From a virus, in IMG/VR virus record IMGVR_UViG_3300030616_000016, positions 1-64,000 of that record: DNA of 64,000 nt; one strand, written 5' to 3'. Position numbers and translations under genes: made by a program. This document shows positions 8,381 to 32,874 of this stretch, piece by piece. The number at the start of each line of letters is the position of its first letter. Positions within the stretch are counted from its first letter, which is position 1. The notes beneath the pieces were generated by a model. The model was given only the letters and a program-made list of their open reading frames with translations, was not told where the DNA came from and searched no databases.

Positions 8381-10546
8381 CTACTCCAATGGGTCTTTGA
8401 CCTTGCCTTGGTTTACTAGTTTGCAGTATTCGGTATTGCATTCGAGTGCCATTCGATTACCCCTAAATCCATGAGCAAAACACTTCTCTCTTGGATTAAA
8501 TGTTGGGTCTTGTGCGCGTAATAGTACTTGCTCAAATTCTTCTATGTCGCTAGTAATTTTAGCAATTCTTAAATGTTCTGCTGTAGGAGTGCTTACTGTT
8601 GAGCATGGATAGAAGTAGCCGTCCGCTCCAAGAGTTATCTGGAAGTAGCCATATACACAATGATCAAAGTCAAATCTTTCTATATCTGTAAACCATGGAT
8701 AATTCCAGAATATATATGGTTTCTCATCTTTGCTTTCTGAAACAAGTGGCGCCAGCCACGCTTCATATTGTTTATCTCCCGGCACTTCAACCATTTCTTT
8801 ATACTTCTTTACATCGTCAAATGATTGATTGTACATAGCGAATGGTATAGAAAACCTTACAGAGTCTACTCCAATGTCTTTTGCTATATTCACAAGCGTG
8901 GAGAACTTCTCAGGGCTTGCTGTGTGCTCTGATATTAGGTATCCTAGCCTTATAGCATGTCCTTTGCCTGCTTTCTCTCTGATGTCCACAGCGCGCTTAA
9001 GAGCGTCTATAACCTCCCAGAACCTTTCTGTGTGTCTATGTCGCTTAACCTTTCCCCATCCCCATGGAGTAGCTGCGTCTAATGAAACCTGAAGATATGA
9101 TATAGTATCACCGTCGGCTAGTCTGTTGAGTTCAGTAAGAAAGCCGGTTTCTTGGTCTAGGCGTTTGAGAGCATATCCGTTGGTATGTATACCAAAGTGA
9201 TTTCCATATTCTCTCGTTTTAGCCATGAATGTCATAAAGTATGGATTCATAAGAGGTTCTGTATATGCACCTCCATATATATGCTGTGGAATTCGTCCTG
9301 CTATATTATCCAGAAGATGAAGACCCGTTATTTCCCAATCACCAAGTGCCTTTATGAACTTTTCGCCCGCACAATTTTTTGATACAAAACCGTTGGCTAC
9401 ATAGTTACCAGTTCCAGTTTCTATGCTATATACATCTTGCATACTTCCCTGCTCAATAGCAATAATTTTTGCATTTCCATGTATGGTACCGTCAAAAATT
9501 GCCTTTCTTTTCCTGGTTATTGATGGATTAGTTATACTAAAAAATTTGATGATGTCAGATGTTTTTGAAACTCGTATTTGAGTTTGTGCTTTGTTAACGC
9601 CCTCTCTTGTGGAAATTCCATATCTAACTTCTATAATATCTAATGCTTTTTTGATACGGTCTATTATATTATTATCTGTATTAGATATGGCAATTGTAGT
9701 TGTGGAATATGATCCTTCTGCATCGAAAATGCCACTTAGGAATCCTATCATAAAATCATATGATTTTTTGTGTGATTCCATAATGTTTTGTATTTCATCA
9801 ACTTGTGATTGAATATTTACCTGTATATAATGCAATTCTTTATTTGTACCTTGCATCTTTCCGCTACAAAATTTTAGATGTGGCATATATGATTTAAATC
9901 TTTGTATTGCTTCATAGTCTGTAAGGGCTAGTCTAAAGTTTCTGCATTTTTCATCATATGCTTTGCCGTACCTCTTCCTTTTATACATATGATTTCTCAG
10001 GCACCCATCGCCATTTGCGATACCACATATCCACCCTTCCTTAAAATCTTTACTTTCTGTACATGTTTTGCTTGGATATGATATCCATCTGATGTTTCTT
10101 GAGTGTCTTTTAGTTGCCTCTGTATATCTTTGATCTATTCTTAGCCATTTATGGTCTGGTGTGCATTCTGTAACACCTTTATTTGTTATAAGTTTGATTG
10201 TTTCTGCTTGCCTAATGCCAATCCATTTGACTTTTGTTTTGGTATTTTTCCAGTGAGTTCCGGATATGCCTTTCTTGAATCCGATCAGCTCGTCTCCTAC
10301 CCGTAAATCCTGTATCGGCTTATATTTTAGTTCGCTTGTTAAAACCATTGTATCTGCAGCATGACAATATTCACAAGACAATTGACAAGGCTTGATATGA
10401 TCTGCCGGCAGGTGTATTTCAAACTGTTTTGGATATACTGGTTTGCCATTGAAGAACTGAGACGGATCATCTTTCATATGGTTCATCAACTGATCCCAGT
10501 ATAAGTATTCCTTTATCCTTGGGTCTTCTCTTTCATTCTCAATCAT
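8381..10546 (-). CDS. radical SAM enzyme interrupted by a LAGLIDADG intein
   Basis: 721 residues as encoded. Residues 1-60 and 392-721 form the host protein; 61-391 are an intein. After splicing the [4Fe-4S]-binding motif CQLSCEYC is restored: the third Cys is supplied by the residue following the intein. C-terminal cysteines (CVYGYF, FYPCST, EKCFAHGF, ECNTEYC) resemble SPASM/twitch-type auxiliary cluster sites. The enzyme therefore cannot be active before splicing. Its 4-bp overlap with the glycosyltransferase gene upstream and its position in the glycan operon suggest a role in sugar or peptide modification; substrate unknown. Confidence 0.85.
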   Translation of the reverse strand: MIENEREDPRIKEYLYWDQLMNHMKDDPSQFFNGKPVYPKQFEIHLPADHIKPCQLSCEYCHAADTMVLTSELKYKPIQDLRVGDELIGFKKGISGTHWKNTKTKVKWIGIRQAETIKLITNKGVTECTPDHKWLRIDQRYTEATKRHSRNIRWISYPSKTCTESKDFKEGWICGIANGDGCLRNHMYKRKRYGKAYDEKCRNFRLALTDYEAIQRFKSYMPHLKFCSGKMQGTNKELHYIQVNIQSQVDEIQNIMESHKKSYDFMIGFLSGIFDAEGSYSTTTIAISNTDNNIIDRIKKALDIIEVRYGISTREGVNKAQTQIRVSKTSDIIKFFSITNPSITRKRKAIFDGTIHGNAKIIAIEQGSMQDVYSIETGTGNYVANGFVSKNCAGEKFIKALGDWEITGLHLLDNIAGRIPQHIYGGAYTEPLMNPYFMTFMAKTREYGNHFGIHTNGYALKRLDQETGFLTELNRLADGDTISYLQVSLDAATPWGWGKVKRHRHTERFWEVIDALKRAVDIREKAGKGHAIRLGYLISEHTASPEKFSTLVNIAKDIGVDSVRFSIPFAMYNQSFDDVKKYKEMVEVPGDKQYEAWLAPLVSESKDEKPYIFWNYPWFTDIERFDFDHCVYGYFQITLGADGYFYPCSTVSTPTAEHLRIAKITSDIEEFEQVLLRAQDPTFNPREKCFAHGFRGNRMALECNTEYCKLVNQGKVKDPLE
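9374..10366 (-). mobile_element. intein with LAGLIDADG homing endonuclease in the radical SAM gene
   Basis: Residues 61-391 of the precursor. It starts with Cys and block-A pattern CHAADTMVLTS followed by LRVGDELIGF, and ends FVSKN before a +1 Cys. Endonuclease motifs are GWICGIANGDG and GFLSGIFDAEGS (two LAGLIDADG helices). The insertion point is immediately before the third Cys of the radical SAM CxxxCxxC motif, a highly conserved site, as expected for intein homing. Confidence 0.9.
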
Positions 10547-13758: not shown

Positions 13759-14415
13759 CTACGCTACATCGTAGCTGATTGTTACAAATCTTGGTGCAAA
13801 CTCACGACTGCCTATTATTTCATCATACAAAACAAAATCCATCTCGCTTATATTTGTTGCATTATGTATGGAATATTTACATTCATTATATCCTAGAATA
13901 CTCATTGTTTCAATCATATTATTTTTAGCATCCTGATGTGAATCACATAAGCCGCCGAATACTTCTTCAGAAGGAGAAAATTGCTTTCTTCCTAATGATA
14001 TATCGAATATAGGATCCATTAAAGCGTTCATAAATAGTTCTGCATGATTTTCATCTGATGTTATAATTACAGAAAATGCGGCGCCTATTAATACACTCTT
14101 AGTAATAATAATTGTATTGTTTGGCGTCCCGTTCTGATTCATTCTATCAGTATAATTTTTATATCCATTAGTGAGTGTGTTTCGTTGGTCTTCTATATGT
14201 CCTTCACTAAACACATAGGTATCCATACTGATACTGTTATTAACTTCAAGAATTTTGTCGGTATCTTCTCTTTCTATTCCAAGTGATGCACATAGCATCC
14301 CAACAACACCGCTTTTGGTTGGAAATCTGAGCGTCTTCTTAAACCTGTTTGGGCTTCTATCTCCCCATGACTGCTCTGGTCCAATTAAATTCATGATAAT
14401 ATATTTACTGTTCAT
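13759..14415 (-). CDS. cas5e: Cascade subunit Cas5e (CasD)
   Basis: 218 residues, family length. Hallmarks: N-terminal LIGPEQSWGDRS, then RFPTKSGVVGMLCASLGIERE, the Cas5e P-T-K-S-G-V-x-G motif. In type I-E it caps the crRNA 5' handle and contacts Cas7 and Cas8e. GGAG lies before the ATG. Unusually, it is separated from cas7e by array 1: the last (degenerate) repeat ends 25 bp before this start codon, so its mRNA 5' end may be produced by Cas6e cleavage of a common transcript. Confidence 0.93.
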   Translation of the reverse strand: MNSKYIIMNLIGPEQSWGDRSPNRFKKTLRFPTKSGVVGMLCASLGIEREDTDKILEVNNSISMDTYVFSEGHIEDQRNTLTNGYKNYTDRMNQNGTPNNTIIITKSVLIGAAFSVIITSDENHAELFMNALMDPIFDISLGRKQFSPSEEVFGGLCDSHQDAKNNMIETMSILGYNECKYSIHNATNISEMDFVLYDEIIGSREFAPRFVTISYDVA

Positions 14416-14439
14416 AGCTTCTCCAATTATATGTTAACA

Positions 14440-14894
14440 ACTTATTCCCCACGCATGTGGGGCAAACGTGCAAGCAGGGACTGACGCCCCTCGGAATTGA
14501 GATTCATCCCCACGCATGTGGGGTACACTGTTCTTGGTGTAACTCTTTTAAAGGCATCTGCGATTCATCCCCACGCATGTGGGGCAAACATTCCGTATAT
14601 TTCTGCTTCACGGCTTAACATGGATTCATCCCCACGTATGTGGGGCAAACGCATCCTCGCACTGCCGGTAAAGATACGCCAGCGATTCATCCCCACGCAT
14701 GTGGGGCAAACATTTGTTTGATGCCATGCTCTCGTGCAAGGCGCGATTCATCCCCACGCATGTGGGGCAAACAATGGGTTTCGGCGGCGGTCATGGCATT
14801 TTCTCGATTCATCCCCACGCATGTGGGGCAAACAATGGGTTTCGGCGGCGGTCATGGCATTTTCTCGATTCATCCCCACGCATGTGGGGCAAAC
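14440..14894 (-). CRISPR. CRISPR array 1, 8 repeats and 7 spacers
   Basis: 28-bp repeats at 61-bp period: 14440, 14501, 14562, 14623, 14684, 14745, 14806 and 14867. Minus-strand repeat reads GTTTGCCCCACATGCG then TGGGGATGAATC, a type I-E hairpin repeat; the next base is usually G, giving a 29-nt repeat with handle ATGAATCG and 32-nt spacers. The repeat at 14440 is degenerate in its last 7 nt, marking the trailer; so the array is read leftwards like the cas genes. Spacers at 14773-14805 and 14834-14866 are identical. Located between cas7e and cas5e. Confidence 0.98.
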
Positions 14895-14941
14895 ACCTAC
14901 ATCTTGTAGATGTAGGTGTTGGTTTTGCTACATATTGTATA
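14895..14941 (-). promoter_or_regulatory. leader side of array 1: 33-nt hairpin plus 14-bp leader motif
   Basis: 14895-14927 is exactly spacer length (33 nt) and contains a perfect 13-bp inverted repeat (AACACCTACATCT arms) with a 3-nt loop, overlapping the first repeat by 3 bp. 14928-14941 is CTACATATTGTATA, identical to the 14 bp abutting array 3 at 22893. The motif touches the cas7e stop codon. Reads as a leader from which one repeat has been lost. Confidence 0.6.
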
Positions 14942-16081
14942 CTAGATTCCCTCTAATATACCTGCTACCGCTGCATCAATTTTAGTATCACCTTTCATAC
15001 CAGTTGTACACTCGAACTTAGGATTGATACAAAACTTTTCTTTAGCTTCGTTCCACTTGTCAGATACTCTTTTGATAGATTCTTCCAAGCAGTTTTTACC
15101 CAGTTCAACAGGGGTTAAGAACTGATCACCGAACGTTTTTGGATAGCCGTTCTTTCTGATCATAAGAATATATGCAGGATAAGTTGATGCAAAGTAAGAT
15201 GTGCTCATTCCTGATGGAGCGGCCATGATTGAACAGACAAGCGCGCATTTAAGTACACCTCTGAACTCTTCATCGTCAAGAACACCGCCAATATTATTCT
15301 CACTTCTGAGCTGATCAAGATTGATAGACTTGAACATATAATAGCAACCGGTATTTGTTTCTTGATAATCCATATGAGCTGCGCCGGCATCATCTTTCTC
15401 ATGCATTTCTTCAGCAGCAATGAACGCATTGATACTTGGAACAGTTCTATGGGTTGTGAATGCAGAGGAGCTTTTTACAGCAGACTCTATATTATCTCTG
15501 CCGGCAATCATTCTTCCAAACAAATAGATATCTGACATATCCTTACATATAGTATCAGTAGCTTGAGTGATTGCTTTTATCGCTTCACTTCTCTTATCAG
15601 GATCAGTCTTGTATGTCAGCTTTTTGTATTTTTCTTTAGTAAATTCTTGAGAAGTTTTGATATCACATGCTTGGACCTTGCCTATATCCTCTTTGTGAGC
15701 TCTTAGAATATCAGCAATGTTTGCCATTTCCTGATTTGAAACAAATACAATAGTAGACAACTTATTAATATCATCTTTATGTGATCCTTTAATGCCATCA
15801 GTACAAATACGCTGAAAGTATGGCATTTCTTCTTCTGGAACCACGTCTGCTATCGCCTTAGCAACTTCTCTGGTGATGTATTTAGTACGATTGCCGCCGA
15901 AGTATTCCGGCATCTCTTCCTTACATACGGTTCTCCAAGCTCTCTTCAATGCTTGAGAAGAAATCATTCCTCTAAGCGAGTCATTAATGTTGACGCTCTT
16001 AGGTGTTCCATCCATGTCTCTATTCATACAGTGAATAGGAAATTCCTGAATTGTGTGTATCTCGATGTGATCCATTTCCAA
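14942..16081 (-). CDS. cas7e: Cascade backbone subunit Cas7e (CasC)
   Basis: 379 residues, full family length. N-terminal IHTIQEFPIHCMNRDMDGTPKS and ISSQALKRAWR (residues ~40-50) are the Cas7e RNA-binding core signatures; LFGRMIAG lies in the central domain. Six copies normally form the crRNA backbone of Cascade. Starts 10 bp after cas6e. Its stop codon is followed immediately by the array 1 leader motif. Confidence 0.95.
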   Translation of the reverse strand: MEMDHIEIHTIQEFPIHCMNRDMDGTPKSVNINDSLRGMISSQALKRAWRTVCKEEMPEYFGGNRTKYITREVAKAIADVVPEEEMPYFQRICTDGIKGSHKDDINKLSTIVFVSNQEMANIADILRAHKEDIGKVQACDIKTSQEFTKEKYKKLTYKTDPDKRSEAIKAITQATDTICKDMSDIYLFGRMIAGRDNIESAVKSSSAFTTHRTVPSINAFIAAEEMHEKDDAGAAHMDYQETNTGCYYMFKSINLDQLRSENNIGGVLDDEEFRGVLKCALVCSIMAAPSGMSTSYFASTYPAYILMIRKNGYPKTFGDQFLTPVELGKNCLEESIKRVSDKWNEAKEKFCINPKFECTTGMKGDTKIDAAVAGILEGI

Positions 16082-16091
16082 CTCCTAATAG

Positions 16092-16667
16092 TTACTTTAT
16101 TGCTTTAAGTGTGATCATTCCATAACCAAATGATTTATATGGCCCAATGCCATTTCTAAATACATTGATAAGACTCTCTCTATCTTTTACTTCCAATACA
16201 CCTACAAATACAGCAGTGCTTATGATGCCGTTCTCGACTTCATTCTTCATGAATACAGAATCAGTATTCTTTGTAATGCTGGTAATTGTAACTTCTTGTG
16301 GCTTAAGCTTCCTGAGTATCCAATCTTTTTTATCTTCTTCTTTGATTATAGGAATTCTGGTAGGTTTGCCATCGTTGTATTTTTTGATGCATGGCGCGGC
16401 TTCAACATTAAACAAATACTTTGACCAATTAAACATCTTTTCTGGTATGCTTATGGTCTCAACATTGAAGTCATCAATCTTAGAGGGAGTTATATCCGAC
16501 AATATGATAAACATATGTCCTTCTCTTTCCTCAGTATATTTGAATAAAAACTGCCTACTATCCAATTGACTGAAAGCTTTCCATATAAACTGATGTCTAT
16601 GATATGGATCATTTAGACAATTCATATAGAAGTTTTCATCATCTAATATTAATCTTGATGCATACAT
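16092..16667 (-). CDS. cas6e: CRISPR RNA endonuclease Cas6e (CasE)
   Basis: 191 residues. DPYHRHQFIWKAF (residues 20-32) is the N-terminal Cas6e motif containing the candidate catalytic His25; the C-terminal Gly-rich loop is GIGPYKSFGYGMITL. Cleaves pre-crRNA at the base of the repeat hairpin and stays bound to the 3' hairpin. Its ATG directly follows the cse2 stop. Gene order cse2-cas6e-cas7e-cas5e differs from the common I-E order, in which cas6e is last. Confidence 0.92.
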   Translation of the reverse strand: MYASRLILDDENFYMNCLNDPYHRHQFIWKAFSQLDSRQFLFKYTEEREGHMFIILSDITPSKIDDFNVETISIPEKMFNWSKYLFNVEAAPCIKKYNDGKPTRIPIIKEEDKKDWILRKLKPQEVTITSITKNTDSVFMKNEVENGIISTAVFVGVLEVKDRESLINVFRNGIGPYKSFGYGMITLKAIK

Positions 16668-17204
16668 CTATTCATCACCTCCCATACACAACTGTTCTTC
16701 TGTGAGGAGGGAGTTTTTATTTCCCCAATATTGAATAGCCCAGTTTTCTCGTACTTGACAGTTCCATTCAAGAATGTTGTGACAAAGCTCATCAAGATCA
16801 TAATACAATGATTTGAAATCAATTGCAATATTCTTGTCTATCATATGCGTTACAGATCTTTTAATAAGTTCAAGCATAGATGACGTGGTATTTGTTTTCA
16901 TGATGCAGTGGAAAATCGTTTCTGTAGAGCTAGATGATCTATTTACAAGTAGTTTCATACACTTACCAAATTTATTTCTGCCACTGGTCTCAGCCTTTTG
17001 ATATAAATATGCAATTGTAGCAGCTACATCTACTCTAACTTTATCAGATAGATTAAATCCAGCTTCAATTAGAACTGGATATATTTTGCATCTAGTATTC
17101 CTATTAATCCCATATTTAATTAGGCCTCTTAATGCACCATCATACTTACTTCTTGCTACAATCTTCAGTAGCCTGTCTATAGGATATTCTTGTGTTTCTG
17201 ACAT
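16668..17204 (-). CDS. cse2: Cascade small subunit Cse2 (CasB, Cas11)
   Basis: 178 residues, typical length. All-helical, with conserved basic patches (GALRGLIKYGIN near residue 20; ATIAYLYQKAETSGRNKFGKCM around 70). Two copies stabilise the displaced DNA strand in Cascade. Identification rests on these weak signatures plus position between cse1 and cas6e; sequence identity in this family is always low. Confidence 0.85.
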   Translation of the reverse strand: MSETQEYPIDRLLKIVARSKYDGALRGLIKYGINRNTRCKIYPVLIEAGFNLSDKVRVDVAATIAYLYQKAETSGRNKFGKCMKLLVNRSSSSTETIFHCIMKTNTTSSMLELIKRSVTHMIDKNIAIDFKSLYYDLDELCHNILEWNCQVRENWAIQYWGNKNSLLTEEQLCMGGDE

Positions 17205-17216
17205 TATGTATTTCTC

Positions 17217-18731
17217 CTAGGATTGTATAAACTTGTCTCTTAAATTAACAATATCTCTGTTTAGACTATTCTTAGCTTGAACATAAGCACGAATGTCTCT
17301 AGCTGATGACTTTCCACAGATACTATCAAATATTTGCAAAGCAGTGCGGATAACTGGAGATACCCACTTTATCTTCAGGTTTTCTATAGCATTTTCACTA
17401 TTGTCCTCAATAAGCTCTATTAGTATCTTATATTTATTATCCATCTTTGACCAAAACTCTGTCAAAGGATTATATCCCTGACTAGTATCTCTATTAGACT
17501 TAATCCTTTTAAAATATAAATTTATTTTCTCTAATAAAATACGTCCGATTTCATCCATGAATTTACAACTCTTAATATACTTATCAATAGATGATCTTTC
17601 TCTGATGTTCTTTGGCATTACCCCAATCCACTCATCTATATCAAATAGCTTTGTTTTTCTGTTCATGAAATTTGCTTGTACAGACCAAAGGACTATATAA
17701 GGACTACTAATTTCATTGGCCATTTCTCGTAATTGTCTGATATGTAGATTGGTTTTTGCTTGATCATCATATGTATTAATTACGGCTCCTAGATCTTTCC
17801 ATGCATAACTTCCTTTACGTAATGCAAAGTAGCGCTCTTCGCCCTTATAGTTTTTGCGCACTACAGTTTCAGGCTCTTTAACTAATATATTCCCATTAAC
17901 TTGTTTACGTAATTCAGGACAAATTGTTGTTCCGCTAACGAACCTTTTTGTTTCTCTGTCAATCTTTAATATACATGACCAGCTACACATTCTACCAAGA
18001 TATGTTTTATAAGCGTTTTTAGCAAATTCTTCGTCATTGACAGAACTAGGTTGCGTTTCCCACACTGGTTTACCCCATGATTCTTCTGGATTTGAGTAGC
18101 CAAGAAATGGTAGATTTTCTTTAAATATCATATTCATATGAATAGTTTCTTTAAGTGTATTACCAATAAGCTTAGTCATATTTCTATCGGTTCCAACACC
18201 TCTTACCTGGTAGTTGCCAAGTTTTTCTCCCCATGTGATTGGCTGTGCTGTGCCACCAGATGTAAACGTATGGAATGTAATAAGATTTTTGGCTATATTT
18301 GCGTCGCTAATATCTTCTGGTTTATAAGGCCTTGAATTAATACAATCATCAGATCTTGATGCGGTTTGTGATTGTATATTTAACTGAGATACGCATATGC
18401 CCTTTTCCCAGTCTGTGTTTTCTATTGATGGCACCTGCATAAAAGCCCGGTCTCCATATAGGTCAAACAGGTCTACTTTATTATTAATATATTCAATAGC
18501 AGAATCTTTAAACGTATCTTTAATTCTGGTCCACTCTTCCATGTTATCGGGGCCATCAATAGCTGCTTGGGATATACAAACCAACATTCTAATTAATGAC
18601 ATTCTAACAATAGCAGACTCATTGATAAACATAATATTATCTAAGTTCTGGAATAGATCTTTAAGTCCATATGTAGTGAATCGGTTATCTTGAAGCCTAA
18701 CTCGGATCCATGCATCATTTACTAAGTTCAT
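17217..18731 (-). CDS. cse1: Cascade large subunit Cas8e (Cse1, CasA)
   Basis: 504 residues, normal for the family. Starts MNLVNDAWIRVR, the usual Cse1 opening; contains the central FHTFTSGGTAQPITWG region of the PAM-sensing domain and a C-terminal four-helix bundle. Recognises the PAM and recruits Cas3. Start codon overlaps the cas3 stop by 4 bp, a sign of translational coupling. Confidence 0.93.
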   Translation of the reverse strand: MNLVNDAWIRVRLQDNRFTTYGLKDLFQNLDNIMFINESAIVRMSLIRMLVCISQAAIDGPDNMEEWTRIKDTFKDSAIEYINNKVDLFDLYGDRAFMQVPSIENTDWEKGICVSQLNIQSQTASRSDDCINSRPYKPEDISDANIAKNLITFHTFTSGGTAQPITWGEKLGNYQVRGVGTDRNMTKLIGNTLKETIHMNMIFKENLPFLGYSNPEESWGKPVWETQPSSVNDEEFAKNAYKTYLGRMCSWSCILKIDRETKRFVSGTTICPELRKQVNGNILVKEPETVVRKNYKGEERYFALRKGSYAWKDLGAVINTYDDQAKTNLHIRQLREMANEISSPYIVLWSVQANFMNRKTKLFDIDEWIGVMPKNIRERSSIDKYIKSCKFMDEIGRILLEKINLYFKRIKSNRDTSQGYNPLTEFWSKMDNKYKILIELIEDNSENAIENLKIKWVSPVIRTALQIFDSICGKSSARDIRAYVQAKNSLNRDIVNLRDKFIQS

Positions 18732-21250
18732 TCATCTTCTCCTAGTTTATATTTTTCTAGGCCAATAACATCATTATATTTGTAGCCTATATATTTACCA
18801 TAGAATGAGATTCTGCCGTCAAAACCAATTTTAAGGATTGGTGTTCTAGTGTTAAAGTACTTTTGCAGAAATTCTTCTGTTCTCAAATCGAACTTGTCAA
18901 ATACATATGATGGAAGTGATACAAGATTTCTATGTATTTGTATATCTGTCTCCCTATCCTTTAATCCTGGTATAATGGTAACTTCTATGTCATTAGATAG
19001 AGTAATGGTATTGTGCTTCTTATAATTGGATTGTTTGATAAGCAAACAACCAATCTTTCTTATGTTGCTGTGACGAGTTTCGACTTCTGCATCATCATAG
19101 AGTTCATTATAATTTTCATTTGTGATTGTGGCAGCTAGATTTTCTAGACTGTCCTTCTTTATCATATCTTTCTCAAACAGTTCCTGTATGTTCTTGTTCT
19201 TATGTTCTGTCTCTTTATATACAGCCTCTAAAAGAGTTTTTACATCTTCTGGTGTGTTAATCACTTCTGTATTCTTAATTACTTCATATGTTCTAAAAAG
19301 AATATATGTGGAATAGACGAAGTGATCATTAAATCCAAATATTTTGCTAAGATCAGATTCTTTACATAGCTTATCTATATTATCATGCATGATGAGCACT
19401 TCAGGACATACAGCTATTCTTTCTCGTATGTGTCTCCATAGCCTACCAAGTCTTTGGATTAGCATATCTATTGGACATAGTTTTGTAATGAGAAAATCAA
19501 AGTCGATGTCAACACTTTGTTCTAGTACTTGTGTAGATACAAGGATACATCCTTCAGCGTCTCCATCTTTACCTAAGGCATCTAACCACTCCTTTTCTAT
19601 CTCTATTCTTTTCCACTCTGGATAGTTAGAATGCAAGATGCCTATCTTAATATCATCACTGGTTTTTGATTTAATGAGTTTGTATAGATGCTGACACTCT
19701 TTTACTGTGTTCATTATGCATCCTACTCTTTGACCTGCTCTAGCTCTATTAATGGCTATTTCTGCAGATTTGCAATAGTCCGTTTCTTGCATTGTAACTT
19801 TTATATTTTTGTTTACTCCCTGACTACGTACCTTAATGTTCTTAATCTTAGTGCTTTGCTTAATAGTAATAAGGGGATAATCGTGCTTATTTATATCATC
19901 AGATTCTAGAATTTGAGTGCGCATTTTATTTGTCAGTGTAGCAGATAGAATGATAACTGTGCAATCAATCTTGGATAGTAAATTTATGAGCCTGTGAATA
20001 AGTGTGTTGGTAAACACATCGTATGAATGGATCTCATCTAGAATTACAACCTTTCCAGCCAGTCCGGCTTTTCTCAATGTATTATATCTAACAGGTAGAA
20101 CACCAAGTAAAGATTGATCTATTGTACCAACAGCAAACTGACTAAGCAAAGCATAGTTTTTATAATCAAACCAGTTTTTACCTTCTATCTTAATAGAGCT
20201 ATCTGATACAGGGCTTTGTATATTATTCTCATACATCCATGCCTTACCATGAGCTAATTTTACGTAGTCTTTATTATTAGATATAGTTTTTATGAAAGGC
20301 TGAATTCTTTCATAGATCTTATTACTTGTGGTTCTCGTGGGTAATGCGAAATATATCCCGCTGGCTTCTTTCCTATCAAGCAATTTATATGCTGCATAAA
20401 GAGCCGCTTCAGTTTTGCCTAATCCAGTAGGCGCTTCTACAATGGAAATAGCATTTTTAGTTATATTATTTGACAGTTCATATTGAACGTCATAAGGTGA
20501 ATAACCAAAAATGTCTTTAAAGGATAGATTGGGCAAAATATCCAGCTGTTTCCATCCGCATAGCTGTAATGCTTTGCTTGCATCATTATTATTTATATCT
20601 TCGAATAAGCTATTGTTAGATGCTATATGATCTGATATAGATACAAATCCTGTAATGGTATCTATTATATCTATATCTATTATCTCAGACAGCGCTCTCT
20701 TTTCATCTGCAGTTAGATCAGCTAACTGATGTTCTATAAATAGCTTTCGTTGTTCTGACCACGTACTTGATCCATATCTTTCACTTTCATCATTGTCTGC
20801 TATATCATACTTAGTAGCTCCATGATGCTTATATGCAATAATGCTCAGAATGTTGGCAATAGATGCCTCAGCATATGTTCGTAAAGATGTGTTACCTATT
20901 TTAGCATGGTTATCTTCGAATGACATTCCAAATAGTTTACATAGATACATAAAGATAGGATCATTTCTTAATTCTTCTTGTGCCTCAGCTGGTAGATTGT
21001 TAAACATCTTTTTATCAAACCCTGGACTTATTTTACCAGTATCATGTGTTCTGGATCCGCATATAACTGGTAAACTATATTTATCAATCATAAAATCAGG
21101 CATGATATTGATAAGTTCTCTTGCAACATCTTCTACCTTTTTAGAATGTTGCAACACTGTCTCGCCAAAACCACCATCTTTTGTTTTTGCTGGACAGTCG
21201 AGCCATGGTATAGCAGGAATATCCACGACATTAGATTCTATTCTTGGCAT
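18728..21250 (-). CDS. cas3: CRISPR nuclease-helicase Cas3
   Basis: 840 residues. HD nuclease domain first: His35, H69-D70 in SRTHDTGK, KHHG at ~141-144 and DH at 207-208. Then the SF2 helicase: Walker A EAPTGLGKT (272-280), DEIH (405-408) and SATLT motif III, and a C-terminal QRLGRLWRH motif VI. All catalytic residues are present, so it should degrade Cascade-marked DNA. AGGA precedes the ATG. The trailer repeat of array 2 ends only 19 bp upstream, so array 2 and cas3 are probably on one transcript. Confidence 0.97.
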   Translation of the reverse strand: MPRIESNVVDIPAIPWLDCPAKTKDGGFGETVLQHSKKVEDVARELINIMPDFMIDKYSLPVICGSRTHDTGKISPGFDKKMFNNLPAEAQEELRNDPIFMYLCKLFGMSFEDNHAKIGNTSLRTYAEASIANILSIIAYKHHGATKYDIADNDESERYGSSTWSEQRKLFIEHQLADLTADEKRALSEIIDIDIIDTITGFVSISDHIASNNSLFEDINNNDASKALQLCGWKQLDILPNLSFKDIFGYSPYDVQYELSNNITKNAISIVEAPTGLGKTEAALYAAYKLLDRKEASGIYFALPTRTTSNKIYERIQPFIKTISNNKDYVKLAHGKAWMYENNIQSPVSDSSIKIEGKNWFDYKNYALLSQFAVGTIDQSLLGVLPVRYNTLRKAGLAGKVVILDEIHSYDVFTNTLIHRLINLLSKIDCTVIILSATLTNKMRTQILESDDINKHDYPLITIKQSTKIKNIKVRSQGVNKNIKVTMQETDYCKSAEIAINRARAGQRVGCIMNTVKECQHLYKLIKSKTSDDIKIGILHSNYPEWKRIEIEKEWLDALGKDGDAEGCILVSTQVLEQSVDIDFDFLITKLCPIDMLIQRLGRLWRHIRERIAVCPEVLIMHDNIDKLCKESDLSKIFGFNDHFVYSTYILFRTYEVIKNTEVINTPEDVKTLLEAVYKETEHKNKNIQELFEKDMIKKDSLENLAATITNENYNELYDDAEVETRHSNIRKIGCLLIKQSNYKKHNTITLSNDIEVTIIPGLKDRETDIQIHRNLVSLPSYVFDKFDLRTEEFLQKYFNTRTPILKIGFDGRISFYGKYIGYKYNDVIGLEKYKLGEDE

Positions 21251-21269
21251 TAGTCATAATCCTATTATA

Positions 21270-21968
21270 AATAAATCCCCACGTATGTGGGGCAAACAAT
21301 ATTCCTGAGTACAAATTCAGAAAAGATTTCGATTCATCCCCACTTATGTGGGGCAAACTTTGGGGTGGGTTAAAGTGTTGCGACGCTGATCGATTCATCC
21401 CCACGCGTGTGGGGTACACATGTTGACATGATCCGGCAGGACGGCACGCTGAGATTCATCCCCACGCGTGTGGGGTACACATGCAAAGCAAGAAGATGGT
21501 GCAGTCGAGGAGCGATTCATCCCCACGCGTGTGGGGTACACATGATATGCCATGGATTATCCCTGATTACCCTCGATTCATCCCCACGCACGTGGGGTAC
21601 ACTTCAGAGTCGCTATTGGATTTGAACCTGACACCGATTCATCCCCACGCACGTGGGGTACACGCATAACGGGAGATCGGACGCGAAGCGTAGAGCGATT
21701 CATCCCCACGCACGTGGGGTACACCAGTTTTTTGCCAATCAGGATGGAGCAGTTTGCGATTCATCCCCACGCACGTGGGGTACACATAACAAGGCAGCAG
21801 GCCATCAATGCCCAGTGCGATTCATCCCCACGCGTGTGGGGTACACATGTTGACATGATCCGGCAGGACGGCACGCTGAGATTCATCCCCACGCGTGTGG
21901 GGTACACATGATATCGCTTTTGCGAAGCTTCCAGTCCGGAGATTCATCCCCACGCGTGTGGGGTACAC
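21270..21968 (-). CRISPR. CRISPR array 2, 12 repeats and 11 spacers
   Basis: 28-bp repeats every 61 bp from 21270 to 21941. Repeat variants change only in the hairpin loop (GCGT, GCAC, TATG-type) and in the distal dinucleotide (CAAAC versus TACAC on the + strand); the CCCCAC/GTGGGG stem is kept. The repeat at 21270 is degenerate (trailer), so reading is leftward into cas3. The spacer at 21420-21452 recurs exactly at 21847-21879, seven units away. Confidence 0.98.
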
Positions 21969-21998
21969 GCCAAGATTTGGTGCCATGTGAATACATCA

Positions 21999-22018
21999 AC
22001 CACAATGTATTGTGGTTA
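21999..22018 (-). promoter_or_regulatory. palindromic site in the array 2 leader
   Basis: AACCACAAT / ATTGTGGTT arms (9 bp) around a 2-bp centre, 30 bp upstream of the first repeat. Candidate operator or leader-binding site. No clear -35/-10 pair with this phage's usual 16-bp spacer was found in the leader. Confidence 0.5.
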
Positions 22019-22052
22019 AATCATGCTAAGAGGTTAACGGATTGTCTTATGT

Positions 22053-22223
22053 TTAGAACAATTTGGACTTGCTTATAAATGCCGCCATATTGTCAACATA
22101 AGTCTCAATCATTTCAAGCTCAGCCAAGGACATAGCTATAAGCTTGTCCTTGGTGATCTTTTTGATAATCGATTCCGCGATTTCTTCTTTCTTTACTTCT
22201 TCAGGTGTACTTGCTGAATCCAT
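22053..22223 (-). CDS. 56-residue helical protein between CRISPR arrays
   Basis: MDSASTPEEVKKEEIAESII... to SKSKLF, 56 residues, strongly charged and helical, with a MSLAELEMIETYVDNM heptad-like segment. No recognised domain. Same strand as the cas operon and upstream of array 2. A short acidic/helical protein between CRISPR arrays could be a regulator or inhibitor, but only position supports that. Confidence 0.55.
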   Translation of the reverse strand: MDSASTPEEVKKEEIAESIIKKITKDKLIAMSLAELEMIETYVDNMAAFISKSKLF

Positions 22224-22253
22224 ATTATATACCTAGAATAATTGTTGGTTGTA

Positions 22254-22505
22254 TTAAAAGCGCTTTTTAGCAATTCTGTCTTCGATATCAAGGAACAGTC
22301 TTTTGGTTACTTGGAATCCGCATACATAGTATGTGAAATCCGTAGGAATGAACTCTTCCCTAATTGGCTGGCCACATAGAACACAGTTCTCAGTAATAAT
22401 CTCTATTTGACGCCTATGATTTAAGCTTATAGGCAAATCGCTATCAATAAGGCTATAAATATCGAACGGCAAACTTGACATAGTTGAATAAACTTTCTCT
22501 TGCAT
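22254..22505 (-). CDS. 83-residue protein with a CxxC pair, downstream of array 3
   Basis: 83 residues with a strong AAGGAG site. Contains CVLCGQPIREEF around residue 40 and a Tyr-Val-Cys-Gly segment ~25 residues later, possibly one zinc site. C-terminus is basic (DIEDRIAKKRF). Lies 54 bp after the trailer of array 3 and before the 56-residue gene, so all may share a transcript. Function unknown. Confidence 0.6.
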   Translation of the reverse strand: MQEKVYSTMSSLPFDIYSLIDSDLPISLNHRRQIEIITENCVLCGQPIREEFIPTDFTYYVCGFQVTKRLFLDIEDRIAKKRF

Positions 22506-22559
22506 ATTCTAACTCCTTACAATAAGTGTTGTGATAAATAGTACGATCAAAACAGTACG

Positions 22560-22892
22560 ACTTTTCCCCACACATTGTGGGGCTAACTTACTCTGGGCAA
22601 TAATTCATAGTCCAGTTAGTGATTCATCCCCACATACGTGGGGTAAACGGAGGAGACCTGGATGGCGATATGTGTATGTTAGATTCATCCCCACGCATGT
22701 GGGGAAAACGCAATTTGTTTACGCTCGCCATCTTTATAAGCAGATTCATCCCCACATACGTGGGGCAAACTTGACGAAGAAAGATCCGTCAATTCAAACG
22801 CTCGATTCATCCCCACGCACGTGGGGTAAACGATTTTGCTCTTTGTGTCGCCTGCTCAACAAAAGATTCATCCCCACATACGTGGGGTACAC
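22560..22892 (-). CRISPR. CRISPR array 3, 6 repeats and 5 spacers
   Basis: 28-bp repeats at 22560 (degenerate trailer), 22621, 22682, 22743, 22804 and 22865, 61-bp period. Loops read ATAC or GCAT/GCAC; several repeats have TAAAC or AAAAC ends instead of CAAAC. All five spacers are different from each other and from those of arrays 1 and 2. It lies directly downstream of the tRNA cluster on the same strand. Confidence 0.97.
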
Positions 22893-22906
22893 CTACATAT
22901 TGTATA
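22893..22906 (-). promoter_or_regulatory. 14-bp leader motif shared with array 1
   Basis: CTACATATTGTATA abuts the first repeat of array 3; identical to 14928-14941 at array 1. On the transcribed strand it is TATACAATATGTAG, containing a TATACA/TACAAT -10-like core, but no good -35 lies 16-17 bp upstream. Confidence 0.6.
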
Positions 22907-22913
22907 ATAAAAA

Positions 22914-22962
22914 TACCCCTGACAGGAGTCGAACCTGCACGCCCGAAGGCACTAGATTCTAA
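22914..22962 (-). pseudogene. 3' half of a split tRNA-Leu(UAG)
   Basis: Contains anticodon TAG, the 3' anticodon-stem strand TCTAG, a GCC-TTCG-GGC variable arm, a T-arm with TTCGACT loop and acceptor strand CAGGGGT plus A73. Its stems pair with the 5' half at 23512-23545 (GCCCCTG and CTAGA). The anticodon TAG doubles as the stop codon of the HNH gene inserted before it. Confidence 0.8.
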
Positions 22963-23363
22963 GTCTTACGGCTAAGTTGTAATCTTCTACACCATTTACC
23001 GACGCACGATTTACCGCAGAATGGACCGTTCATTTTATCTTTCTGTCTGCGGCGTTCATCCTTTGCCATTACCTTTTTTGTATTACCACATTCAACGCAT
23101 ACTATGGTTGTCCATTCTATCTGCTTGCGATGATGATTTATATGTTCCGCTTTTGATTTAATTTCTAAGTTATATATACTATTATTCTGTTTGTTTCCAT
23201 CCTTGTGATGTACAAGTTCAGATGAGTCCAATTTTCTTCCAAGACTCTTCTCCATAACTTCTCGGTGCATCAACACAGTTGCTTTGCTGTCATCGCTGTA
23301 TTTTACTGTACACGCAAGATATCCTTCTAGGTTGAACCAATTAGATCGGTAAACTTCTTTCAT
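22959..23363 (-). CDS. HNH homing endonuclease inserted in a tRNA-Leu gene
   Basis: About 134 residues from MKEVYRSNWF at 23363 (GGAG site; the longer frame runs back into a tRNA). The HNH core is SSELVHHKDGNKQNNSIYNLE...HINHH; a zinc-binding tail follows (CVECG ... FCGKSC). The stop codon is the anticodon of the interrupted tRNA. Typical phage HNH homing enzymes of this form cut conserved sequences and are copied into them, which would explain insertion at an anticodon loop. Confidence 0.85.
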   Translation of the reverse strand: MKEVYRSNWFNLEGYLACTVKYSDDSKATVLMHREVMEKSLGRKLDSSELVHHKDGNKQNNSIYNLEIKSKAEHINHHRKQIEWTTIVCVECGNTKKVMAKDERRRQKDKMNGPFCGKSCVGKWCRRLQLSRKT

Positions 23364-23384
23364 CTTGATCTCCAAATATAATAA

Positions 23385-23466
23385 TGGGAGTAGAGGGACT
23401 CGAACCCTCACGCCTTGCGGCAACGGTTTCTAAGACCGTCCTGTCTGCCATTTCCAGCATACTCCC
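23385..23466 (-). tRNA. tRNA-Leu(UAG)
   Basis: Type II cloverleaf: acceptor GGGAGTA/TACTCCC, anticodon loop CTTAGAA, variable arm GCC-GCAA-GGC, T-loop TTCGAGT. No encoded CCA. Lies inside the insert that splits the neighbouring tRNA-Leu and reads the same codon (CUA). Confidence 0.92.
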
Positions 23467-23468
23467 AA

Positions 23469-23501
23469 AGTATAATATATATCCTAAGAAAGTCAAGTAA
23501 A
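23469..23501 (-). promoter_or_regulatory. promoter for tRNA-Leu(UAG) and the HNH gene
   Basis: Two overlapping minus-strand options with 16-bp spacers: TTTACT...TATATT, which places the start at tRNA G1, or TTGACT...TATACT two bp from G1. The promoter lies within the insert. Confidence 0.55.
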
Positions 23502-23511
23502 GTGTTTGCCT

Positions 23512-23545
23512 AATCTAGCGTGTATGCCAGTTTCACCACAGGGGC
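23512..23545 (-). pseudogene. 5' half of a split tRNA-Leu
   Basis: GCCCCTG acceptor strand, TG, D-arm GTG...CAC with loop AAACTGGCATA, then anticodon-stem strand CTAGA and TT of the loop. These pair with the 3' half at 22914-22962; about 550 bp separate the two halves. Confidence 0.8.
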
Positions 23546-23552
23546 ATAATAA

Positions 23553-23639
23553 TGGTAGCCAGGGAGGGAGTCGAACCCACACACCGCAATGGATATCCGG
23601 GCTTAAACCGGATGCGTCTGCCAGTTCCGCCACCTGGCC
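23553..23639 (-). tRNA. tRNA-Leu(UAA)
   Basis: Acceptor GGCCAGG/CCTGGCT, anticodon loop TTTAAGC, long variable arm, encoded CCA. One T-stem mismatch (T-T) is visible. Confidence 0.9.
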
Positions 23640-24752: not shown

Positions 24753-24782
24753 GAAGTTACCTTTCAAGTTAAAAATGGAAGG

Positions 24783-24816
24783 TTGACTGTAGCTCTACCG
24801 ACTGAGCTACCCAAGC
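24783..24816 (-). pseudogene. truncated tRNA, 5' half only
   Basis: Reads GCTTGGG TA GCTC...GAGC, a good acceptor and D-arm, but the anticodon stem and T-arm do not follow; the next sequence is the leader of the 53-residue gene. Isotype cannot be assigned. The 200 bp between here and tRNA-Gly contain no gene I would defend. Confidence 0.6.
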
Positions 24817-25030
24817 ATAAAAATCACCTGATATATAGATACATTTTTCGAAGGAAATATCTCCTGGTGCAGGCGCCTTCCGGATTAAGATCACTCCTCT
24901 ACCGCCCATATGTATTTCTAGGTGTTGAGGGGGATCGGTATCCGGAAGGCGGTTATCATTTATGCGATGAATACACCGCACTATTCTTTTTACATTCAAA
25001 AGAATAAAACTCTATATACCAGGCTTATTT

Positions 25031-25105
25031 TGGAGCGCCATGTGGGAATCAAACCCACTCCTTCAGGTTGGAGGCCTGACATGCGATCATTAACACCTAT
25101 GGCGC
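25031..25105 (-). tRNA. tRNA-Gly(UCC)
   Basis: Acceptor GCGCCAT/ATGGCGC, anticodon loop CCTCCAA (position 33 is C instead of T), discriminator U73 as in Gly, encoded CCA. Confidence 0.88.
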
Positions 25106-25631: not shown

Positions 25632-26234
25632 CTAGTCTTCATCAAGTTCAACATCCCAATAAGCATCAGAAACAAACTTCTGCCATGACACTTTTCTCTT
25701 AAATATAGGTATTTTAAGAGCAGTCATGCCATGAGGCTCAATTGGTTTCTTTCTTAGCTTCATACCAGATTCTGCAGGAGTTCTATTGCCCTTATTGTTG
25801 TTACATTTAACACAGGCAATAACACAGTTCTTCCAGGTAGTTTTACCACCCTGTGCTTTAGGGATGATATGATCAATTGTGGCGTCTGAAGTTTGTAGCT
25901 GAACACCGCAGTATTGACATGAACAGCTATCACGTTTAAATAGATTGCGGCGTGACAGCTTCAACCGATGTGTAGGCATCTTGCCATAGCTAATCAGACG
26001 TATTACTTCAGGCACCTTTACTTCTAGTCTAACAGTTTTTATAAACTGTTCTCCTTCAACGACTTTCAAATCGGCCCATTCCTCAAAATTATATATAGAA
26101 TAGTCATCTGGTAGTATGGCTTGTGCACGGTCTTTAGCCATTAATTCAATGGCATGACGTACAGATGCAAATCCGATTGGCGTCCAGTTTTTGTTTAGTA
26201 CAAGCGTTGGTTCCTGAAGTACCACATTAATCAC
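25632..26234 (-). CDS. HNH endonuclease
   Basis: 200 residues. N-terminal beta domain (VLNKNWTPIGFASVRHAIELM) followed by the HNH/zinc module CQYCGVQLQ...TIDHIIPKAQGG..TWKNCVIACVKCNNNKGNRTP. This domain order is that of a widespread bacterial and phage HNH family, usually free-standing. It lies between two tRNA-Arg genes, 1 bp from tRNA-Arg(UCU), consistent with a homing nuclease travelling with tRNA genes. Confidence 0.88.
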   Translation of the reverse strand: MINVVLQEPTLVLNKNWTPIGFASVRHAIELMAKDRAQAILPDDYSIYNFEEWADLKVVEGEQFIKTVRLEVKVPEVIRLISYGKMPTHRLKLSRRNLFKRDSCSCQYCGVQLQTSDATIDHIIPKAQGGKTTWKNCVIACVKCNNNKGNRTPAESGMKLRKKPIEPHGMTALKIPIFKRKVSWQKFVSDAYWDVELDED

Positions 26235-26507: not shown

Positions 26508-26583
26508 TGGTAGCGGGGCCGGGACTCGAACCCGACTTGGCGGATTATGGGGCCACCCAGACCACCTGGCCTTGCCCCCCGCG
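26508..26583 (-). tRNA. tRNA with CAU anticodon, initiator-like
   Basis: Acceptor CGCGGGG/CCCCGCT with an unpaired C1-T72, matching the initiator hallmark; encoded CCA. The anticodon loop reads CCCATAA (C33) with a C-T mismatch closing the stem, and the D-stem has a mismatch, so function is less certain than for the one at 28903. Confidence 0.7.
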
Positions 26584-26591
26584 ATATGTCT

Positions 26592-28594: not shown

Positions 28595-28671
28595 TGGAGC
28601 CTCTGGCGTGGAATTGCACCCGCAACATCTGCTTTACAAGAGCAGCGCTCTACTATTGGAGCTACAGAGGC
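28595..28671 (-). tRNA. tRNA-Thr(UGU)
   Basis: Acceptor GCCTCTG/CAGAGGC, anticodon loop CTTGTAA, encoded CCA; T-loop is TGCAATT, with G55 replacing the normal T. Confidence 0.88.
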
Positions 28672-28989: not shown

Positions 28990-29781
28990 CTATGTATATT
29001 TAGTTTCTGGTGATGCCCATCCAGCAAAATCAGAAATATCTTGCTTATCAAAATCATCTGAATAATGTATCAAGTACATCTTGTCTTTGATTGATTTATC
29101 AAGCATTTTCAAGTCTGCTAATGGAGCATGAACAGCACCAGGAAAGAACTGCACGTCGTGAAACATTATTTTTGACTTATGAGCATACATTTCAATAAGT
29201 TCTGGATCAAATCTTGTGTCACCAGATACAAATATTTTCTCATCAGGAAGATATATACCAAATGATATAAAGGAGCTTTCCCAGTCTGCAGATTGTTCAG
29301 GGATATGTTTGGTTCTGAATATCTCTATATTTATTCCTTGATATTCAACTTCGAATATCTCTCTAGGTTCATGTTGTTTCCATTTAGGTCTAATAACATC
29401 AAAGAAATCTTCAAAATTAAGTTTCTTCATCTGATCGTTTTCTTCATTGTATTCAAGACCACCGCGTAATGTATAATCCCAGAGAATTCTTTGGTAGTTT
29501 TGTTCAATAATCATCTTGAGTTTTGGTTTACCTAGAAACTCTTGGCCGACATATCTATTCATAAGAGCTAGCATTTCTATTCCACCAACATGATCTGCAT
29601 GAGAATGTGTTGGGAGAATACATTCTATATCTATCGGTTGGATTCCTTTATCGGCGATAGCTCTTGGGCCGGTCATGCCAAAATCTACAAAGACATCGCT
29701 TTTTGTACCATGAATGATAAAGTTAGTTTGGTGATTTTTTGCCGCGAAGGCTGATCCAACACCAAGGAATTCGATGCTCAT
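28990..29781 (-). CDS. metallo-beta-lactamase-fold hydrolase, RNase Z-like
   Basis: 263 residues. Metal ligands: THSHADHVGG (HxHxDH), a His near HIPEQ, the Asp of SGDTRFD and the late His of LIHYSDD. Fold and length match the RNase Z/phosphodiesterase branch. In a tRNA cluster a tRNA 3'-endonuclease is attractive, since four of the intact tRNAs here lack encoded CCA; but phage proteins of this fold can also degrade cyclic nucleotide signals used in host defence (Apyc1-type). Sequence alone does not separate these. Confidence 0.78.
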   Translation of the reverse strand: MSIEFLGVGSAFAAKNHQTNFIIHGTKSDVFVDFGMTGPRAIADKGIQPIDIECILPTHSHADHVGGIEMLALMNRYVGQEFLGKPKLKMIIEQNYQRILWDYTLRGGLEYNEENDQMKKLNFEDFFDVIRPKWKQHEPREIFEVEYQGINIEIFRTKHIPEQSADWESSFISFGIYLPDEKIFVSGDTRFDPELIEMYAHKSKIMFHDVQFFPGAVHAPLADLKMLDKSIKDKMYLIHYSDDFDKQDISDFAGWASPETKYT

Positions 29782-32289: not shown

Positions 32290-32343
32290 TCGGGACGGGA
32301 GGATTTGAACCTCCGAGGGCATTAATGCCACCTGGTCCCAAAC
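32290..32343 (-). pseudogene. 3' half of a type II tRNA next to an HNH gene
   Basis: Has variable arm GGCAT-TA-ATGCC, T-arm GGAGG/CCTCC with loop TTCAAAT, acceptor strand CGTCCCG and A73, but no matching CGGGACG 5' strand was found upstream. An HNH gene ends about 20 bp before it. Confidence 0.65.
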
Positions 32344-32364: not shown

Positions 32365-32874
32365 CTATAGACCAATATTTTTAATTTGTCCATTATGAAA
32401 TGCGGCATGACAATTTTTACACAATACAGTGCATTTTTTAAGCTCAGACTCTAATCTCTTCCATGACCAATATCTCATTGTTTTAAATGATTGGTCCTTA
32501 ACATTAGGGTCTATATGGTGAATATCCAAAGAGCAAATGAATTTATTGAATCCACAATGCATGCACTTCCCGCCTAAAAACTCCACTGCCTTTTGTCTTG
32601 TTTCTTTTGCCTTTTTGTTATTATACGCATTCTGACATTTGCCGCAAATACTCTTTTTATGTCCATAAAACTTTTTGGGATCCGTCTCTCCACAAGAACA
32701 TTTCCTTATAGTGGCCATATCTTTTGGGAGTTTTCCTTTTGGTCCACGCCTAGTTTTCAATCCAAATTTTTTCAACCAATATCTAACACAGTCCTGAGAT
32801 ACTGACAATTTGTCTGATATCTGGCGTAAGCTCAAACCTTCTTCTATTAATTTATTTAAAATATTCTGTTCCAT
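32365..32874 (-). CDS. HNH endonuclease with N-terminal helix-turn-helix
   Basis: 169 residues. Residues 1-45 form a helix-turn-helix (IEEGLSLRQISDKLSVSQDCVRYWL). Then CSCGE...ICGKC and CMHCGF...LDIHHIDPNVKDQSF...CTVLCKNCHAAFHNG, the zinc-stabilised HNH core. A consensus promoter ends 7 bp before its ATG, so the message is probably leaderless. Located just before an orphan tRNA 3' half, suggesting past insertion into a tRNA gene. Confidence 0.88.
   Translation of the reverse strand: MEQNILNKLIEEGLSLRQISDKLSVSQDCVRYWLKKFGLKTRRGPKGKLPKDMATIRKCSCGETDPKKFYGHKKSICGKCQNAYNNKKAKETRQKAVEFLGGKCMHCGFNKFICSLDIHHIDPNVKDQSFKTMRYWSWKRLESELKKCTVLCKNCHAAFHNGQIKNIGL

Follow-up and report, generated by a model that had tools for sequence, protein, structure and literature searches.

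Why would a virus carry a tRNA-Leu(UAG) gene that is broken at its anticodon loop by an insert which itself contains an intact tRNA-Leu(UAG) gene and a gene for an HNH endonuclease? The usual view is that self-splicing introns, inteins or an intergenic location make homing endonucleases tolerable, and the question is how such an insert could be tolerated inside a tRNA gene. The locus lies in a window (the whole stretch of DNA that was analysed, 64,000 nucleotides, GC content 37%) from the 231,647-base record of a large bacterial virus, within a dense tRNA array on the minus strand at 22.9-35.6 kb, detected with ARAGORN and Rfam, and the remaining 168 kb of this genome are free of ARAGORN tRNA calls. 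The features of the locus are:

23514-23545, minus strand: 5' half of the split tRNA-Leu(UAG), with acceptor strand, D arm and 5' anticodon-stem strand (ending in CTAGA), from the sequence
23510-23513, minus strand: TTAG 3' of the 5' half, repeated as AGACTTAG at the 3' junction, from the sequence
23469-23501, minus strand: promoter-like sites directly upstream of the inner tRNA, TTGACT-16-TATACT and TTTACT-16-TATATT, from a consensus scan
23384-23467, minus strand: intact inner tRNA-Leu(UAG), the proposed replacement, from ARAGORN and Rfam (RF00005, 54.4 bits)
22959-23363, minus strand: HNH endonuclease gene, 134 amino acids, ATG to TAG (Pfam PF13392, E=8e-10)
22959-22961, minus strand: TAG, both HNH stop codon and anticodon of the split tRNA, from the sequence
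22914-22963, minus strand: 3' half of the split tRNA-Leu(UAG), with anticodon loop, 3' anticodon strand, variable arm, T arm, acceptor strand and A73, from the sequence and a T-arm scan

A first-pass annotation of this DNA had proposed that a tRNA-Leu(UAG) is split here at the anticodon loop, and stem pairing as well as the match of the joined halves to continuous tRNA-Leu genes confirm this. The 5' half has the layout GCCCCTG-TG-GTG-AAACTGGCATA-CAC-G-CTAGA (as a whole GCCCCTGTGGTGAAACTGGCATACACGCTAGA), and the 3' half, starting at 22963, the layout C-TTAGAA-TCTAG-TGCCTTCGGGCGT-GCAGG-TTCGACT-CCTGT-CAGGGGT-A (as a whole CTTAGAATCTAGTGCCTTCGGGCGTGCAGGTTCGACTCCTGTCAGGGGTA). While the annotated layout of the halves stands, their ends shift slightly, the 5' half reaching to 23514 instead of 23512 and the 3' half beginning at 22963 instead of 22962. 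The acceptor stem and the anticodon stem pair across the halves as had been claimed, with 7/7 pairs including one wobble (G1:U72) and with 5/5 pairs, respectively. Joined with one extra loop base for the comparison, the halves are up to 84% identical to continuous phage tRNA-Leu genes over the full 82 nt, and of 517 phage tRNAs the nearest ones are all tRNA-Leu(UAG). The 3' half shares a 51-nt match with the tRNA-Leu(UAG) of a 735-kb phage. In IMG/VR, genuine tRNA-Leu 3' halves with TTAGAATCTAG are each preceded by their own 5' half, the window excepted; beyond the window only two TTAGAATCTAG matches stand without a 5' half, and both are non-tRNA chance matches. Other phage tRNA-Leu(UAG) genes that share this 3' half are continuous and have CTAGA or a variant of it immediately 5' of the loop. 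Since the joined halves match continuous tRNA-Leu(UAG) genes and the same 3' half is continuous elsewhere, the halves in the window were once one gene. The concern, voiced in the annotation, that the halves might never be found joined in other genomes is met by these continuous tRNAs of the same kind in other phages. When the junctions were compared, AGATTAG was found on the 5' side and AGACTTAG on the 3' side; with TTAG at both junctions, a short target-site duplication is possible.

The locus is organised, on the minus strand, in the order 5' half, promoter-like sites, intact tRNA-Leu(UAG), HNH gene and 3' half. The 5' half is followed by TTAGGC and ~40 nt with the promoter-like sites, after which the inner tRNA begins. 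A promoter had been annotated here, and of this claim a promoter-like site stands: one at 23496-23469 matches the consensus at 10/12 positions, and the region contains nine such sites against 2.5 expected, a consensus match alone being no proof of function. The intact tRNA-Leu with the same anticodon is likewise present as annotated, both ARAGORN and Rfam calling it at 23467-23384 and missing the split one, and is predicted to fold into a cloverleaf (z = -2.8). The split and the inner tRNA-Leu(UAG) have the anticodon and the loop CTTAGAA in common, whereas the stems flanking this loop differ (CTAGA/TCTAG in the split tRNA, CGGT/ACCG in the inner one). A ribosome-binding-site-like GGAG is located between the inner tRNA and the HNH gene, and the stop codon of the latter, TAG at 22961-22959, is indeed the anticodon of the broken tRNA. 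Thus, the insert carries an intact same-anticodon copy of the gene that it breaks, a putative rescue copy; a second copy of the insert is absent from the 231,647-base record.

The HNH protein consists of an HNH_3 domain and a C-terminal zinc finger with four cysteines. Homologues in annotated phages, which are 19-29% identical to the window protein, have the same zinc finger, and the family alignment is invariant at H53 and N65, as expected for catalytic residues of an HNH nuclease domain, and at C89, C92, C116 and C120. In the Pfam and PHROG searches with the window protein only HNH families scored clearly, the PHROG matches being HNH families and no GIY-YIG family occurring among the matches listed. 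AlphaFold2, with an input alignment of the window protein and IMG/VR rows only, gave a pLDDT of 92.5 across the whole length; with a model that is confident throughout, the gene does not look decayed. A fold search of the PDB with this model returned no significant match to a solved structure.

These data bear on the reading that the insert is a relic, produced by a one-off illegitimate recombination of a tRNA-HNH piece into a decaying dense array and having neither mobility nor function. The array does hold other fragments (for instance an orphan 5' half at 24817-24780), and the joined split tRNA, with its G1:U72 pair, has an unusual D loop and a predicted minimum-energy fold that is not a cloverleaf. 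A relic is nevertheless improbable in our view, given that the HNH reading frame is intact and confidently folded in the model, that the inner tRNA and the promoter-like site are intact and that this layout is also present in unrelated phages.

The surroundings of the locus contain further features, recorded here in their own right. The orphan tRNA 5' half (24780-24817, minus strand) reads GCTTGGGTAGCTCAGTCGGTAGAGCTACAGTC, and no matching 3' half was seen in the genome. Abnormal tRNA-like sequences at 26510-26590 and 32290-32340 (both minus strand) have good T arms and acceptor stems and no ARAGORN call, and the tRNAs at 25034-25105 and 28598-28671 (minus strand) are called by Rfam and not by ARAGORN. 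A metal-dependent hydrolase gene (PHROG 392) lies within the array at 28990-29781 (minus strand); it is possibly a tRNase Z-like enzyme, because several tRNAs of the array have no encoded CCA. Two more HNH genes, with best matches in other PHROG families, are located between tRNAs of the array (25635-26234 and 32368-32874, minus strand). A phage-borne type I-E CRISPR-Cas system occupies 13759-22890, with cas3, cse1, cse2, CRISPR_assoc (PF08798, Cas6-type), cas7-type and cas5 genes by Pfam and CRISPR arrays at 14446-14895, 21329-21970 and 22560-22890; cas1 and cas2 were not noticed among the open reading frames of this stretch.

It might also be possible that the insert is a self-splicing intron beyond the reach of Rfam, in which case the split tRNA would be restored in the RNA. 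In its favour, 12 loci have this HNH family encoded within an intron of tRNA-Leu, as judged by the group I intron exon pattern (..GACTTT / AAAATC..), and Rfam confirms a group I core in seven of them (L083, L093, L099, L120, L123, L136 and L137). The Rfam library that detects RF00028 in these seven relatives, which serve as a positive control, reported no intron in the insert region (22880-23560) at E<=10, and a group I catalytic core was not found between the halves. The first-pass annotation had argued that there is no room for such a core and had named an intron structure over the insert as the finding that would speak against its reading; the empty Rfam search and the nearly filled insert, in which ~46 nt precede the tRNA and 20 nt separate it from the HNH gene, agree with it on both points. 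Furthermore, the distance from the HNH stop to the T arm of the 3' half is 20 nt in the window as compared with 114-255 nt in the intron forms. The intron mode of ARAGORN, generally a poor detector, reported nothing for the window. An intron that has diverged this far is therefore highly unlikely, the least probable of the readings considered here.

To what extent the locus is typical was addressed with a survey that covered 99 distinct loci, each having a complete HNH frame. In 88 better-scoring family loci, the window being left out, an intact tRNA was located at most 60 nt from the HNH gene in 49, compared to an expectation of 13.1 under random placement (no more than 21 in any of 500 trials), and tRNA-Leu made up 28 of the 59 HNH-adjacent tRNAs against 45 of 231 overall. 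The HNH stop falls within an intact tRNA at 18 loci, in five of which (L058, L065, L126, L144 and L152) it lies in the anticodon loop. The homologues found first, in a single-protein search (L001-L015), represent the wider HNH_3 set, and a tRNA was present in none of these loci. We searched for splits with intact tRNAs masked, asking whether the HNH gene has a tRNA 5' half on its upstream side and a 3' half on its downstream side whose acceptor stems match. Such halves flank the HNH gene in 19/99 loci with relaxed settings (swapped-pair null 0.27, maximum 2 in 300 shuffles); the first settings had given 18 loci with a null mean of 0.11 at threshold 6. The splitting of tRNA genes is thus a trait of this HNH family.

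The 19 split loci comprise the 12 with the intron pattern and seven without it, namely the window, L077 (Xanthomonas phage LucasX), L106, L126, L127, L149 and L196, and none of these seven has a group I match. In all seven the insert includes a tRNA, which may precede or follow the HNH gene: Leu(UAG) in the window, L126 and L127, Leu(UAA) in L106, Thr(UGU) in L077, Ile(UAU) in L196 and, by eye, an odd Arg(UCU)-like form in L149 that ARAGORN does not call. L106 has the order of the window, with the 5' half GCGCTGGTATTCCAATCGGCAGAGAAATGGG followed by the intact tRNA-Leu(UAA), the HNH gene and the 3' half, and its HNH stop TAA is again the anticodon of the broken tRNA. L149 shows the window-like order with Arg; in L077, L126, L127 and L196 the HNH gene comes first and the tRNA second. 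The spare tRNA is absent from the insert in some members that split or abut a tRNA, such as Vibrio 1.026.O and Aeromonas phage P19 (L074), where a tRNA-Met is split at the loop and the HNH stop lies in that loop. In the family tree, intron forms and spare-tRNA forms are partly intermixed at weak support, and the place of the window protein is not fixed.

Several unusual tRNA genes were encountered at family loci. In L110 the acceptor strands of the upstream tRNA-Leu(UAG) mismatch by eye and a 3' half past the HNH gene pairs with its 5' strand, as though a new 3' half had arrived with the insert. Also noticed by eye were odd tRNA-Arg(UCU)-like genes in L064, L066, L067, L069, L071, L149 and L157, which are unrelated phages; in these genes an extra stem seems to enclose the anticodon hairpin and to replace the normal D arm, and L072 and L160 have a comparable tRNA-Met(CAU)-like gene. 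In L050 (~9,830-10,140, minus strand; genome ~93,830-94,140) two tandem tRNA genes are permuted, with the 3' half before the 5' half and complementary acceptor stems (TCTTCCCA-CTATAT-GGGAAGA and AGGACAC-TCCATTTTATTCCTTAT-GTGTCCT). Both pass ARAGORN once they are rejoined in normal order with an arbitrary loop, and a TnpB-like open reading frame, identified by eye, is located 3' of them.

If the inner tRNA is a replacement, its isotype should be that of the broken gene. The joined halves are nearest to Leu for the window, L106, L126 and L127, to Arg for L149 and mostly to Thr for L077. In 26 curated cases, based on hand-picked 5' halves of ~30 nt that were chosen by eye and at some loci are the only half visible, which restricts the power of the test, the isotype of the insert tRNA was that of the best match of the 5' half in 14, with 5.1 expected, and none of 20,000 isotype permutations reached 14. 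The pairs Leu/Leu, Arg/Arg, Thr/Thr and Ser/Ser recur, so that the replacement reading the same codon, suggested earlier for the window, is a recurring pattern; agreement was not seen for L132, L196 and L232.

The main rival explanation, co-conversion without selection, accounts for most of the same facts. A neighbouring tRNA would be copied along, without any rescue, as the HNH gene spreads by cut-and-repair, and isotypes would agree since the arrays of donor and recipient pair up where their tRNA genes are isoaccepting. Many family members lie against or overlap an intact tRNA and show no sign of a split, as one would expect from such a process; the same holds for the P19 insert, which splits a tRNA-Met and brings no tRNA, and the loop CTTAGAA common to the split and inner tRNAs could guide the recombination. 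The presence of a tRNA inside the insert at 7/7 intron-less split loci, upstream or downstream of the HNH gene, is harder to reconcile with it, and a random neighbour predicts neither the Thr-like 5' half with tRNA-Thr in L152 nor the Ser-like 5' half with tRNA-Ser(GCU) in L068. We regard co-conversion alone as rather unlikely, although it is the alternative to be taken most seriously.

Relatives with an uninterrupted tRNA, which the first-pass annotation had recommended as a check, were found for two other family members and not for the window phage. Shigella phage SGF2 (Kuravirus, L234) has an intact tRNA-Arg(UCU), GCACCCTTAGCTCAATGGACAGAGCAGCGACCTTCTAAGTCG..., at the site that is interrupted in Kuravirus O18, which has lost the target's 3' half and retains only the first part GCACCCTTAGCTCAATGGACAGAGCAG, followed by the HNH gene and a different intact tRNA-Arg(UCU). 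Bas91 and SGF2 have the upstream flank and the downstream gene in common. In P19 the split tRNA-Met lies between a tRNA-Gly and a second tRNA-Met in the order 5' half, HNH gene, 3' half, and avDM6 (L237) and AS-szw (L236) have an intact tRNA-Met exactly at the split position. These uninterrupted tRNAs opposite O18 and P19 point to entry into tRNA genes by members of the HNH family. For the window phage, searches via the primase/helicase and via the gene adjoining the tRNAs yielded no relative with an uninterrupted locus, DNA similarity to GenBank phages was confined to tRNA matches, and relatives in the genome collection were too few to contribute; insertion in the window lineage is thus inferred.

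Taken together, the architecture, its recurrence, the isotype agreement, the lack of a detectable intron and the uninterrupted sites make it reasonably probable that an HNH homing endonuclease interrupts tRNA genes, that the interruption is tolerated via self-splicing or a spare isoacceptor and that the insert in the window is such a mobile element. The HNH enzyme, from a phage family that dwells at tRNAs, would recognise the anticodon region of the tRNA gene and cut or nick the uninterrupted gene near the anticodon, and repair off the donor would copy the HNH gene and the spare tRNA into the recipient. In the window, the HNH coding sequence would have entered the anticodon loop of tRNA-Leu(UAG) with the intact tRNA-Leu(UAG) alongside, so that the recipient virus would have lost the target tRNA and gained one with the same anticodon and a different surrounding sequence. 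Such a replacement would make the insertion cheap, and the new copy should escape cutting: the spare tRNA would take over, its differing stems would protect it from the HNH enzyme, and selection would presumably keep it as a rescue. In the related elements within tRNA-Leu group I introns, the target would be kept working by splicing, and spare copy and self-splicing might be two solutions to one problem. Since the break-and-replace layout recurs in unrelated phages, the insert looks like a natural selfish gene with its own repair copy. The wider claim that a widespread phage HNH family consists of natural home-and-rescue elements with a cleavage-resistant tRNA of the same isotype, repeatedly switching with group I introns, appears to us evenly balanced.

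If this is true, there is a third route to the tolerance of homing endonucleases, in which the target is broken and a working substitute is brought along, and it would help to explain the broken and redundant tRNAs in phage tRNA arrays. Since the HNH family also uses introns, the move between the intron and the spare-copy solution can be studied, and Escherichia phages that differ in whether the element occupies the same tRNA-Arg, with the HNH gene present in Bas91 and the tRNA-Arg intact in Bas86/87/88, would be an easily tested laboratory pair. Our search of the open-licence literature brought up no description of an HNH gene that splits a tRNA and brings a spare isoacceptor, which is not proof of novelty.

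Among the closest known systems is SegB of T4 and T6, a GIY-YIG homing endonuclease that is free-standing and belongs to phage tRNA regions (PMC13096335, PMC2988022). In T4 its gene sits between tRNA genes and it targets a tRNA intergenic region (PMC2988022), and it promotes the inheritance and amplification of tRNA segments (PMC2988022; PMC13096335). SegB and the window HNH gene are alike as phage endonucleases tied to tRNA genes, the former driving inheritance or amplification of the tRNA region, but belong to different nuclease families, and the available portions of these papers describe no broken target with a spare isoacceptor for SegB. By analogy with SegB and tRNA-Tyr, the extra tRNA-Leu could offset a host anticodon nuclease, with the HNH enzyme amplifying the segment; SegB-promoted tRNA amplification defeats Septu (PMC13096335). 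We consider this anti-defence role very unlikely, as the insert is single-copy in the window genome and SegB is a GIY-YIG enzyme that was not reported to split tRNAs.

Intron-encoded HNH homing endonucleases such as I-PfoP3I are well known (PMC3428280). They likewise occupy a fixed place in a conserved gene, and relatives of the window protein reside in tRNA-Leu introns; the window insert differs in having no intron core and in replacing the tRNA instead of splicing it. Cluster J mycobacteriophages are an example of elements that integrate at tRNA attB sites (PMC3706429). The window insert resembles them in its target, a tRNA-Leu gene, and in a site edge in the anticodon loop, but they depend on an integrase, and the same tRNA is usually restored by them, whereas the insert contains one tRNA and the HNH gene only, with no integrase and no restored target tRNA, and leaves the target split. 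Free-standing phage HNH proteins (PHROG 14913 / Pfam HNH_3) match the window protein in domain and size, while their family label is silent on tRNA targets and L001-L015 are loci without a tRNA.

In engineered home-and-rescue gene drives an endonuclease interrupts a target gene and brings a working copy of it. Unlike these drives, the window element is natural, concerns an RNA gene and is known from sequence alone; like them, it has an endonuclease gene that interrupts its target and an insert with an intact copy, which may serve the same function. If so, the logic of engineered rescue gene drives occurs naturally in phage tRNA genes.
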